A stretch of 32,917 nucleotides of DNA from Chitinophagaceae bacterium (lineage in GTDB: Bacteria; Bacteroidota; Bacteroidia; Chitinophagales; Chitinophagaceae): NCBI GenBank assembly GCA_014379515.1, contig JACMLR010000014.1:1-32917 (forward strand). Direction: 5' to 3'. Both the position numbers and the translations under genes were made by a program. The notes under the pieces are model-generated. The model was not told the DNA's origin. It saw nothing but the letters and a program-made list of their open reading frames with translations, and did not search any database. Shown here piece after piece: positions 14,961 to 19,425 of the stretch; positions within the stretch are counted from its first letter, which is position 1; every line of letters starts with the position of its first letter.

Positions 14961-17327
14961 TTAGTCAATGAGGCGCTGACGATTTTTTTTCATGAAGGCC
15001 CATGCTCCAATGCCCGCTAAAACAACAAATGATAGCAGAAAATTCGGGTGCATTACCCCCGGATTATCATTGTTATCGTCAATGCCGCTTGCTACCGTTG
15101 CATATGCTGCATCCGTTTTTCCTGAGCTTCCTTCCTCATTTGCCATATCCCAATTTTCATGGCTCTTTCCTGTTAGGGATGTAAGTTGGAGCAATTCAGC
15201 TTTACGTCGTTGCTTTAAACCAACAAGGTATTTTCTGCCCTCGCTGCATGAAAAATCGCCTTCGGCAGGGTGGGTGATAATATATCTTGCCTGGTAGTTC
15301 TCTTTGTTAGGTGTTACCTGGAACACGAGATCCTGGGGGAATTGTTCCCGGTTATATCGGATATGCAAACGAGTGAAATAAACGTCAGGATTATAATCAG
15401 CCGCATCTTCATTATCTACATCGTCATAATTGTTCCAATCGCGCGTTAACCACCACACACCCGCTTGAATAAGGTCTTGCTCTCCCGGCGGATTGCCAAC
15501 GCACGGATCGCATTTGACATAATTTTTCGGACTAACATCCCATGCATACTCAAGCATCGAAATACTTTGACCTTCTTTTATCCACTGATGCTGGAACAGA
15601 TTACTATAAAAGGCACCGAAATTTTGCTTTACAAATAGCGGAACATTTTTCGCCGTGGGCAATTCGACACTACGATAATTGATGGTTTCGATACGACCCT
15701 TTTTTGTGAATGCATAAACGATCATATCCTGATCTCCGTCAGCATTGGCCATACCAAGACGGATGGGTAACATAAACTTGGGAGAGTTAAAACTGATTTG
15801 AATTGGACGAAGGAAATCGCCAGGTAGTTTTTTCTTTTCCGCAGCATTTACTTTTACCACGAAAAATTTCATGTTGCTTTTTACATAAGGTTCTAATACT
15901 TCTTCCGCTGCCGCGGGAAGTTTATATCCATTTTCTGTAAGCCATTCTTTTAATCCACCCGATTCTTTCGCGCTCAAAATTAGTATATCGTATTCCCCAA
16001 CGATATACTGTGCTTCAATTGTAACTGATTTTCTTTTTGCAGCGCCATATCCACTAACAACAACTTCATTCAGGGCAGAGGGAGCAAATTGCTTCATGTC
16101 GCTATCATAAGCCACCCTGCTACAGGGATTTTCGTCATAATATTCAACAAGCCTCGGCTTCGAATAATCATTCAGAATATTAAAGATGGATTGATTGACA
16201 ACTTTGATATCCTTTTTTTGCAATATAACGGGCACCGGTACGACCATTGCAAAGTCTTTGAAATTACCTTTGAAGTCGTTGTACATCGTTATCACGTTTT
16301 TATTGCCATCTCGTACTAATATTACCTGGCTTGTTTTATTTTTCAATGTGCCGTCAGCTTTGGCAACATAGAAGCCACAGAATGCAGCAACATCATGTGT
16401 CATCAACGTAGCGAGTAAAAACGTCGCCGCAATTTTTTTGAAGGATGGTTTCATTTTTGATTTTTTAAAAATTTGAAAGAGATTAAAGGCTTTTGATTGA
16501 TTCCACTCGAAGGTTGAATTTTTCCAGATACGATTCAGAATTGGAACGAGCGGGGCAGCAGCCACAAGCACCCATAACATTGTATTATATTTCCATTTGA
16601 ATGCAGATAAATAGAATGCAGTAGCTGCAATAAGTACCGCCCAGATAACCCGCGCCACAGGATGATTAGGTGCGGTCTTCGGATCACTTATCATGAAGAA
16701 GGTAAAGAGCAGGAGACTTCCGGTACCAACTGAATGAACAAAAAAGTCGAGCGGCCAACCTAAATAAACAACCTGTCGGAAAAACAGTAGTGATATGTAG
16801 GTGATCAAAAAAGCTAGGCTGACATCGAGCCGTTGCACTCTTGTGATAACGATTGTGCCGAGAGTAATAACAATGAAAAATATGACTGCATTACTTCCCC
16901 ACTGCCCTGGTGACAGCCACGCTTTGTCCGTAATTAATAGCATCACTACAATGGCAAACGCTGACGGGTTAAAAATATGCCTGCCATCGAATCGAAAAAG
17001 GAGCTTGCTCATTACCGTTAGGAATGCAGCAAAAAGACTTATATACCAGTAGTTTGTTTTCAACAGAAGGCAAAGGCTCATCGCACTAATTAACACACTG
17101 AATCCCCAAAGAGAAAAATGGTTGATCGTTAGCCATTTTTTTAGCCTGATTGAATCTGCAGCATACTGAAAAAGAAAGCAAGCAGAAATTGAAATCGAAT
17201 AATGAGGCCAGTCTGCCTGCCATCCAAGAAATAAAATTCCATAAGAAAGAAAAATTGTCTGGAAGATAACCTGGAACCATCGCGCATCCAGGCAAGAGTC
17301 TCTTACTGCCATAAACTGGTTTAGCAT
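14961..17327 (-). CDS. fusion: RnfD/NqrB-like membrane domain plus secreted DUF2330 domain
   Basis: A 788-residue protein in one uninterrupted frame. Residues 1-275 are a polytopic membrane domain resembling RnfD/NqrB (NQR2_RnfD_RnfE), with features such as FDGRHIFNPSAFAIVVMLL, the threonine-containing SVGTGSLLLFTFFMISDPKT segment and APNHPVARVIWAV. Around residue 292 comes a sequence that looks exactly like a signal peptide (MKPSFKKIAATFLLATLMTH), followed by a DUF2330 domain beginning AFCGFYVAKADGTLKNKTSQV. A C-terminal membrane helix (LLSFVVLAGIGAWAF) and basic tail follow. An internal ATG at 16454 could start the DUF2330 part alone. No other Rnf/Nqr subunits are present. Divergent from the ECF sigma gene with 73 bp between. 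Confidence 0.8.
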   Translation of the reverse strand: MLNQFMAVRDSCLDARWFQVIFQTIFLSYGILFLGWQADWPHYSISISACFLFQYAADSIRLKKWLTINHFSLWGFSVLISAMSLCLLLKTNYWYISLFAAFLTVMSKLLFRFDGRHIFNPSAFAIVVMLLITDKAWLSPGQWGSNAVIFFIVITLGTIVITRVQRLDVSLAFLITYISLLFFRQVVYLGWPLDFFVHSVGTGSLLLFTFFMISDPKTAPNHPVARVIWAVLIAATAFYLSAFKWKYNTMLWVLVAAAPLVPILNRIWKNSTFEWNQSKAFNLFQIFKKSKMKPSFKKIAATFLLATLMTHDVAAFCGFYVAKADGTLKNKTSQVILVRDGNKNVITMYNDFKGNFKDFAMVVPVPVILQKKDIKVVNQSIFNILNDYSKPRLVEYYDENPCSRVAYDSDMKQFAPSALNEVVVSGYGAAKRKSVTIEAQYIVGEYDILILSAKESGGLKEWLTENGYKLPAAAEEVLEPYVKSNMKFFVVKVNAAEKKKLPGDFLRPIQISFNSPKFMLPIRLGMANADGDQDMIVYAFTKKGRIETINYRSVELPTAKNVPLFVKQNFGAFYSNLFQHQWIKEGQSISMLEYAWDVSPKNYVKCDPCVGNPPGEQDLIQAGVWWLTRDWNNYDDVDNEDAADYNPDVYFTRLHIRYNREQFPQDLVFQVTPNKENYQARYIITHPAEGDFSCSEGRKYLVGLKQRRKAELLQLTSLTGKSHENWDMANEEGSSGKTDAAYATVASGIDDNNDNPGVMHPNFLLSFVVLAGIGAWAFMKKNRQRLID

Positions 17328-17400: not shown

Positions 17401-18057
17401 ATGAACTGGGCGACAAAAGATTCTCCGGGTGATCACAAGCGTGCATCAAAAACCTTAATTTTCCGGAAATCTTCGGCGGAATTGAATGAACTGGAATTAA
17501 TTGACAGACTAAAGAAAGGGGATGAAAGTGCGTTTAAGCTAATTGTAGAAACCTGGCAGGATATGGTCTACAATACATCTCTTGGTATCGTCCAGCATTC
17601 TGAGGATGCGGAGGATGTAGCGCAAGAGGTATTCGTTCAAGTGTATGAGTCAATTGGCCAATTTAAAGGAGATTCAAAATTTTCCACCTGGTTATACCGG
17701 ATCGCCTTTACCAAATCACTCGATCACATCCGCAAAAAAAAGCGCAAGAAGCGATTTGCTTTCTTGCAAAGCCTTTTTGGAATTAATGATGAGGAGGTTC
17801 GGCATCAGCCTGATTTCCATCACCCCGGCGTCAGCATGGAAAACAAGGAAAAGGGGGCAGTTCTTTTCAGAGCGATAGAGAAATTACCCGATAATCAAAA
17901 GACAGCTTTTACCCTGCATAAGATTGAAGGCCTTAGCTATCAGGAAGTTGCAGAAATTATGGAATCAACGGTATCCTCCGTTGAGTCACTAATGCATCGG
18001 GCAAAGGGAAATCTCAAAAAGATCTTGAACGATTATTACCGAAATTTAAAAGAATAA
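17401..18057 (+). CDS. ECF RNA polymerase sigma factor
   Basis: A 218-residue extracytoplasmic-function sigma factor. Region 2 spans about residues 30-118, with DAEDVAQEVFVQVYESI (core binding) and STWLYRIAFTKSLDHIRKK (-10 recognition). Region 4 spans about 155-212, with LPDNQKTAFTLHKIEGLSYQEVAEIM and SSVESLMHRAKGNLKK as the helix-turn-helix for -35 recognition. A basic linker (KKKRKKR) joins them. About 30 residues precede region 2, so a later start is conceivable, but no better ATG exists. It heads a four-gene plus-strand set, and the two following membrane-anchored proteins suggest control by envelope signals. Autoregulation is usual for such operons; no promoter motif was identified. Confidence 0.93.
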   Translation: MNWATKDSPGDHKRASKTLIFRKSSAELNELELIDRLKKGDESAFKLIVETWQDMVYNTSLGIVQHSEDAEDVAQEVFVQVYESIGQFKGDSKFSTWLYRIAFTKSLDHIRKKKRKKRFAFLQSLFGINDEEVRHQPDFHHPGVSMENKEKGAVLFRAIEKLPDNQKTAFTLHKIEGLSYQEVAEIMESTVSSVESLMHRAKGNLKKILNDYYRNLKE

Positions 18058-18117
18058 GGCAAAAACTTTCAACAAGGTGCAAGTTTGATCACCTGTTAAC
18101 GTCAAAAAAATAGTAAT

Positions 18118-18459
18118 ATGACCAACCCCGAAAACATATCAAAACAGGTGGAAGAAACGCTTGCGAGCCTGGATCATATCGAGCGAGCAACGGCCAATCC
18201 ATTTTTGTATACCCGAATCATCGCCTCGTTGAAGTCTGATGGAGCAAAAGACTGGAGCTGGGCAGCTCGGTTTCTCAGCAGGCCAGTTATTGCGCTCGCA
18301 GCAGTTGTGGTAGTTATTATAATGAACGCGGTTGTTGTTTTTCAGTCTTCTGAAACGAGCCAGCTGCTTCCTGAAGAAGAGCAGATTTTTGCCAGCGAGT
18401 ATAACTATCCACAAACCACCGCTGATCGCTTCTACAGTGTAAATGATGAACAACCATGA
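18118..18459 (+). CDS. one-pass membrane protein, candidate anti-sigma factor
   Basis: A 113-residue protein with a soluble N-terminal part (residues 1-54), one transmembrane helix (about 55-75, RPVIALAAVVVVIIMNAVVVF) and a short acidic outer segment. Size, topology and position 60 bp after the ECF sigma gene suggest that the N-terminal part holds the sigma factor at the membrane. I see no zinc-binding HxxxCxxC motif, so it is not a ZAS-type anti-sigma factor. The last four bases, ATGA, overlap the start of the next gene, implying translational coupling. The anti-sigma role is inferred from context only. Confidence 0.75.
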   Translation: MTNPENISKQVEETLASLDHIERATANPFLYTRIIASLKSDGAKDWSWAARFLSRPVIALAAVVVVIIMNAVVVFQSSETSQLLPEEEQIFASEYNYPQTTADRFYSVNDEQP

Positions 18460-18965
18460 GTACGGGAGCAAGAAACAATAAGGCGCTGATTGGATTGGTG
18501 ATAATACTATTGCTCTCCAATCTTGCAGTACTTCTTTACTTTACTGTTTGGAACCGACGTCCTGAGCATAAGGGTGGCAAGGGCGATTTTTCGATTGTCG
18601 ATTACATGAAGAAAGAAGTTGGGTTTAACGAAGAGCAAACAAAACAGTTTCAACAACTACACGAACAAAATCGTGACTCACTCAAACTTATTGGGGATAG
18701 TATTCGTTCATCGAAAAATTCTTTGTATCGTTTGTTGAGGGAACCTGCCAACGATTCTTCGGTTGCGCAGGCCATTAATACCCTGTCTGTTCAACAGCAA
18801 CGAATGGAACTAACGATGTTTCGCCACTTCGGTCGGGTCCGATCTATTTGTAATCCGGAACAAAAAGTCAAATTAGATTCGATGGTCAACCGGATGAATA
18901 ATAAACCTGCGTTTTATCGCCGTAATGGAAATCAACGAACGGAAGGACAAAAAAAGAACTCTTAA
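18456..18965 (+). CDS. periplasmic sensor of the CpxP/Spy/CnrX type (heavy-metal resistance family)
   Basis: A 169-residue protein with an N-terminal membrane anchor (about residues 10-31) and a long helical periplasmic domain: YMKKEVGFNEEQTKQFQQLHEQNRDSLKLI, a helical hairpin, and NPEQKVKLDSMVNRM. This layout is that of the CnrX/ZraP/CpxP group annotated as periplasmic heavy-metal sensors. In the Cupriavidus CnrYXH system an analogous protein senses metal and releases the sigma factor through the anti-sigma protein. Few His or Met residues are placed as in CnrX, so metal sensing is not shown. It overlaps the preceding gene by four bases. The tail is basic and Asn/Gln-rich. Confidence 0.8.
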   Translation: MSTGARNNKALIGLVIILLLSNLAVLLYFTVWNRRPEHKGGKGDFSIVDYMKKEVGFNEEQTKQFQQLHEQNRDSLKLIGDSIRSSKNSLYRLLREPANDSSVAQAINTLSVQQQRMELTMFRHFGRVRSICNPEQKVKLDSMVNRMNNKPAFYRRNGNQRTEGQKKNS

Positions 18966-19047
18966 CAGTGCAGTAAATATAGAGGGCACAGGTTTTTTTT
19001 CGTCTTCACATCTAACAACAAACAATTAATTTAATTAAACAGTCAGT

Positions 19048-19425
19048 ATGAAAAACAGAATCATTCTTGTAGCATTACTTCTTGTTGGATTTATTGCTGC
19101 AAACGCACAGGGTCCACAACGCCGTACAATTGAAGAAAGAGTAAAGACGATCCATGAAAAAATGGATAGCGCCTTCAAGCCGGCTGCTGAGAAACTTACA
19201 GAGATCGATGCAATCTTTACCGATTATTATAAAGCCTCTGATAAAGCGCGCGAGGAATTAATGGCAGGGGGTGCTCGTCCTGACCGCGATGCGATGATGG
19301 CTAAAATGGAACCCATCACTACAGAACGTGATACTAAACTGAAAAAAGTTCTCGGTGAAGATCAGTTCAAAAAATGGAAGGATGAAATTGAGCCTTCTAT
19401 GCGCCCGCAACGCAGGCAGCAGTAA
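19048..19425 (+). CDS. small secreted helical protein, Spy/CpxP-like
   Basis: A 125-residue protein with a clear Sec signal peptide (MKNRIILVALLLVGFIAANA, cleavage before QG). The mature part is charged and helical: RTIEERVKTIHEKMDSAF, KLTEIDAIFTDYY, then ERDTKLKKVLGEDQFKKWKDE, and an Arg/Gln-rich end. The LGEDQFKKWKDE segment is typical of Spy/CpxP-like periplasmic proteins (LTxxQ type). It is last in the ECF sigma cluster, 82 bp after the sensor gene, and is followed by a strong terminator. It could be a chaperone-like effector of the envelope response; this is inference from family and context. Confidence 0.75.
   Translation: MKNRIILVALLLVGFIAANAQGPQRRTIEERVKTIHEKMDSAFKPAAEKLTEIDAIFTDYYKASDKAREELMAGGARPDRDAMMAKMEPITTERDTKLKKVLGEDQFKKWKDEIEPSMRPQRRQQ

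Follow-up and report, generated by a model that had tools for sequence, protein, structure and literature searches.

Two normally neighbouring genes have merged in Chitinophagaceae, bacteria of soil and water, and a single reading frame probably yields two proteins. The gene considered here lies in a window of 32,917 nucleotides (the whole stretch of DNA that was analysed, from a Chitinophagaceae bacterium assembly) and combines an RnfD/NqrB-like membrane domain with a DUF2330 domain. Held with somewhat more confidence than doubt, our reading as a whole is that of a read-through fusion which kept an internal start and a signal-peptide cleavage site, which would give two products, and whose halves would act as membrane partners.

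An earlier note on this DNA had described one uninterrupted frame of this composition, an internal signal peptide with its own ATG and a C-terminal membrane helix, and all three features were recovered (Table 1). Between its ATG and its end the frame contains no stop codon. The N-terminal half scored above the curated cut-off of the Pfam family PF03116, NQR2_RnfD_RnfE (47.7 vs 27.7 bits, E 1.8e-12), and the second domain above that of PF10092 (232.8 vs 24.7 bits), with positions 3-278 of the 279 in the profile covered. Met292 opens a typical signal peptide, MKPSFKKIAATFLLATLMTHDVAA|FCGFYV, and the last helix is predicted at residues 761-787. Lys/Arg residues precede the signal peptide and follow this helix, a placement that fits an outer domain flanked on both sides by segments of cytoplasmic location.

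Table 1. Features of the fused gene, with positions in the window.
Feature	Position	Strand	Basis or content
Single frame, 788 codons/aa	14961..17327	minus	RnfD-like domain, internal signal peptide, DUF2330, C-terminal helix
RnfD/NqrB-like membrane domain, residues 13-275	16503..17291	minus	PF03116, profile match, Foldseek
DUF2330 domain, residues 313-669	15321..16391	minus	PF10092, E 5.9e-69
Internal signal peptide, residues 292-315, predicted cleavage VAA|FC	16383..16454	minus	-3/-1 motif in fused genes
Internal ATG (Met292), signal-peptide start	16452..16454	minus	Conserved in 17/20 fused genes
A-rich putative internal translation-initiation region, 5' of ATG 16454	16455..16474	minus	Synonymous-conservation peak, A fraction, split-start profile, low structure
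Asn120 codon, equivalent of A. woodii RnfD Asn123	16968..16970	minus	Invariance and alignment
Asp215 codon, equivalent of A. woodii RnfD Asp249	16683..16685	minus	Invariance and alignment
Invariant CDPC motif (Cys606, Cys609)	15501..15512	minus	Alignment of loci
C-terminal membrane helix, positive residues at cytoplasmic end	14982..15047	minus	Helix prediction

Protein searches of relatives and public genomes returned many full-length fused homologues, mostly 60-71% identical, as well as neighbouring separate-gene pairs of both halves. A set of 41 loci, chosen for containing both halves, comprised 20 fused and 21 split forms; the split pairs were adjacent and on the same strand in every case, with most gaps between -26 and +63 bases and a single gap of 255. 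The earlier note had looked to recurrence in several genera as support for a true fusion, had asked whether the halves are usually adjacent or fused in Bacteroidota, and would have given the fusion up had all homologues been separate genes and the fused form confined to one assembly. Fused forms recur in many genera and in about 20 other genomes, among them the isolate genome of Terrimonas pollutisoli. The genome of the window is fragmented and 78% complete, which could suit an assembly or sequencing artefact that deleted a stop, but this recurrence refutes such an explanation and leaves it a negligible chance. The fusion is real and common to a clade.

A tree built from the joined halves and rooted on the most divergent split forms placed the split forms at its base and needed three state changes, all forced by well-supported branches. 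The split state looks ancestral, and the simplest reading is one main fusion within Chitinophagaceae and a second in L079; in its congener L077 an in-frame TAA separates the halves, and in L036 a fused lineage apparently became split again. The nearest sisters of the window gene are L075 and L076. When 299 genomes of the order were searched for the DUF2330 family only, 21 were positive and the majority of the DUF2330 genes had an RnfD-like gene directly upstream, while at least two (L110 in G829 and L120 in G845) had no RnfD-like neighbour within about 1.5 kb. The genetic link between DUF2330 and RnfD-like proteins in Bacteroidota is thus strong and near-constant, though not absolute, and the partnership is not obligatory. 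The L120 protein also seems to lack the C-terminal helix, and one genome carries a tandem second DUF2330 copy (L119/L122, G906:C293). Outside the phylum, a plasmid of Deinococcus sp. QL22 (L102, 4001-5193) holds a DUF2330 sequence 45% identical to that of the window, apparently broken into several frames, with no RnfD-like gene annotated nearby and possibly acquired by horizontal transfer; DUF2330 is also found on a Nocardia plasmid, in a record that bears no annotation at that place.

The earlier note had offered, as its second option, that two products are made from the one frame, and the comparative evidence favours this over one uncut chain, as the more likely state predicted from the sequence. 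An ATG lies exactly 25 codons 5' of the conserved Cys of AFCGFYV in 17 of the 20 fused genes. For synonymous conservation the seven codons just 5' of it come top among 749 windows (p about 5e-5; 0 of 20000 matched column draws reached this level), and in a divergent subset (n=11) they rank second, behind the window shifted by one codon. Amino-acid needs of the signal-peptide n-region cannot account for a synonymous constraint, and its peak at the internal start and nowhere else points to selection on the nucleotide sequence after the fusion. The fraction of A before the internal ATG is 0.55, compared with 0.24 at 271 other in-frame ATGs, and base by base the profile resembles that seen where split DUF2330 genes start (100% and 75-90% A at -10 to -12). 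In Flavobacterium johnsoniae adenines at -3, -6, -12 and -13 promote initiation (PMC6847099); the internal starts fit this pattern well at -6 and -12 and partially at -13, and at -3 most fused genes have G, the window A. Predicted folding is weak at the internal start of the window (MFE -1.1 vs a gene mean of -7.4 kcal/mol) and in most other fused genes, with few exceptions such as L027. By these predictions the start context is of the Bacteroidota type, A-rich and mostly unstructured. The synonymous peak might instead mark another nucleotide element, such as an internal promoter or an RNA regulatory site, since A-rich DNA could also be an upstream promoter element; this is improbable, given that the peak lies directly 5' of the ATG and has the position-specific profile found at split DUF2330 starts.

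Three fused genes (L029, L075 and L076) have lost the internal ATG, which means that the fusion alone is tolerated and the internal start is not indispensable. As two of them are the sister lineage of the window gene, the internal start may be decaying in this lineage. In these two (also listed as L050/L051) predicted folding energy is zero at the lost start, with 40-48% G+C. The cleavage motif A/V-x-A|FC, with A or V at -3, A at -1 and -2 free, is present in all 20 fused proteins, including the three lacking the ATG; a kept -3/-1 pair around a free -2 is what would be expected if signal peptidase I still cuts, and cleavage is predicted.

These observations bear on a single-chain fusion as well, in which the signal peptide would be an uncleaved transmembrane segment, the product a single membrane protein bearing a large outer domain and the ATG context a relic. 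The long open frame maintained through much divergence and the three ATG-less genes, including the sisters of the window gene, speak for it; we regard it as unlikely nonetheless, because synonymous conservation is concentrated at the internal start alone, the cleavage motif is kept in every fused protein around a free -2, and the lineage of L036 has apparently re-split. Under the favoured reading, with two products, the fused gene would derive from an old two-gene unit by loss of the stop between the genes and read-through. The first gene would have encoded an RnfD-like membrane orphan whose riboflavin-type site is non-covalent, and the second a secreted DUF2330 protein that its C-terminal helix anchors in the membrane; the translation-initiation region and signal peptide of this second gene would have stayed inside the frame. 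One product would be a long precursor, cut by signal peptidase I between Ala315 and Phe316, and the other extra DUF2330 initiated at the internal ATG. As in the split relatives, both halves would be partners at the cytoplasmic membrane, the RnfD-like one within it and DUF2330 on its periplasmic face. Internal-start use, cleavage, flavin binding, physical partnership and any transfer of electrons to the DUF2330 cysteines are what we infer for this system.

The identification of the first half as RnfD/NqrB-like stood as regards fold and riboflavin ligands, and failed as regards the linker that carries the FMN threonine. RnfD and NqrB were the best structural matches (Foldseek to 8rbq_D, E 2.4e-8), a profile matched 8ahx_D (E 5.5e-16), and the score against the NCBIfam rnfD model was 22 bits for a cut-off of 207. 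In the RnfD of A. woodii the riboflavin ligands are Asn123 and Asp249, and the FMN is attached to Thr156 (PMC11889175), and in C. tetanomorphum the FMN threonine sits in a five-helix linker (PMC9588780). Asn120 and Asp215 of the window protein align with the two riboflavin ligands, as the Asn of an NP motif and the Asp of a TDP motif, and show no variation across all 41 loci or across 23 diverse RnfD-like proteins (down to 25% identity). The window protein lacks the insertion that carries Thr187 in E. coli RsxD, and positions 131-172 of the PF03116 profile are unmatched, so the half cannot be an ordinary RnfD/NqrB. On the evidence of two residues in low-identity alignments, it is a candidate flavin binder. 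As for the orphan status claimed earlier, it agrees with the genome-wide searches: in the genome of the window, at 78% completeness, no other true PF03116 member was found, nor were PF02508 (RnfA/E, NqrD/E) and PF04205 (FMN_bind, RnfG type), each of which was found in four control genomes; at this completeness the absences are not final. A second weak PF03116 match in the genome is an ABC exporter and not an Rnf/Nqr protein, and one ApbE gene is present.

The loss of the FMN linker and the lack of other Rnf/Nqr parts in the genome could also mean that the half is no longer redox-active and acts as a channel for small molecules or simply as a membrane scaffold for DUF2330; its fold resembles that of urea and ammonium channels, and a urea transporter and AmtB were among the Foldseek matches of low significance. 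This is possible but doubtful: even RnfD-like proteins of 25% identity have both riboflavin ligands without exception, and in Nqr/Rnf-like systems the RnfD-type half likewise lacks the Thr, yet has an apparent non-covalent flavin site (PMC10979944). Such a role concerns function and can coexist with the two-product reading.

The DUF2330 half contains five invariant cysteines (Cys317, Cys402, Cys606, Cys609 and Cys694). A PDB sequence search with the whole protein gave no match to it, and no mention of DUF2330 was found in the papers searched; a Foldseek match of the DUF2330 model to baculovirus P35 (E 1.4e-3) was rejected at an rmsd of about 10-11 angstrom. Our reading of the function of the first half is that of a riboflavin-bearing membrane partner of an anchored periplasmic DUF2330 protein. 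More speculatively, and with little confidence, the pair can be pictured as a membrane redox module in which an RnfD descendant that lost FMN and kept riboflavin would pass electrons from the cytoplasmic side to the cysteine-bearing periplasmic DUF2330, one clade making both from a single frame by an internal start and signal-peptidase cleavage.

An envelope function had been suggested from an ECF sigma factor ORF that starts 73 bp from the fused gene and is divergent from it. The comparison did not sustain this suggestion: such an operon occurs close to the gene pair in about ten loci, its orientation in the relatives being convergent and its position downstream, it is absent nearby in most loci, and the divergent upstream placement occurs only in the window. 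Its proximity is poor evidence of co-regulation, and besides the gene pair itself the neighbour analysis gave no conserved functional context. In the window the operon spans 17401-19425, includes a Spy/CpxP-like (Metal_resist/LTXXQ) gene and is rearranged in placement with respect to the relatives.

The near-constant partnership with an orphan RnfD-like protein offers a lead to the function of DUF2330 in Bacteroidota. Within one bacterial family, moreover, a gene fusion can be seen midway: some forms are split, some fused with the internal start, some fused without it and one apparently re-split, a mixture that makes the way in which bacteria retain two products of a single frame directly testable. 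Standard annotation would record one fused protein and overlook a second product.

Among known systems, RnfD of Rnf and NqrB of Na+-NQR (PF03116) share with the window half the fold, the profile match and the riboflavin Asn and Asp, whereas the window half lacks partner subunits and the FMN-Thr linker and falls far below the NCBIfam rnfD cut-off. Also comparable are the Nqr/Rnf-like two-subunit systems (PMC8238504, PMC10979944), in which, according to a 2024 study (PMC10979944), RnfD-like parts without the flavinylated Thr function with a membrane-anchored extracytosolic partner. The partner there is of the FMN-bind type, which as PF04205 was not found in the genome of the window, while here it is DUF2330, which Pfam places where those systems have a C-terminal cytosolic NAD-binding domain (PF00175), absent from the window protein. 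Of the other RnfD-like proteins in these bacteria, the nearest adjoin secreted UnbV/ASPIC-FG-GAP proteins; these orphans, 25% identical and with the same invariant residues, likewise have an extracytosolic partner, adjacent or fused. RnfD-like proteins of this kind go by the name UnbU. In several Chitinophagaceae (L098-L100) the orphan RnfD-like gene overlaps or closely follows the UnbV/ASPIC-FG-GAP gene. In L017 (G047:C491, minus strand) a 764-aa frame links a distinct orphan RnfD-like domain to an FG-GAP protein by way of a membrane segment, and is an independent fusion of the same design. Based on the UnbV/FG-GAP pairs, the L017 fusion and the two-subunit systems (PMC10979944), an orphan RnfD-like protein with an extracytosolic partner looks like a recurring design. 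The UnbV pairs differ from that of the window in the fold of the partner and in gene order, UnbV preceding the RnfD-like gene and DUF2330 following it. The Bradyrhizobium fbcH cytochrome b/c1 polyprotein consists of a polytopic membrane protein followed by an internal signal peptide, a periplasmic domain and a C-terminal anchor. The fused protein has the same layout, its internal signal peptide with a cleavage motif included; cleavage is known for fbcH and predicted for the window protein, in which the internal start has seemingly been retained as well.
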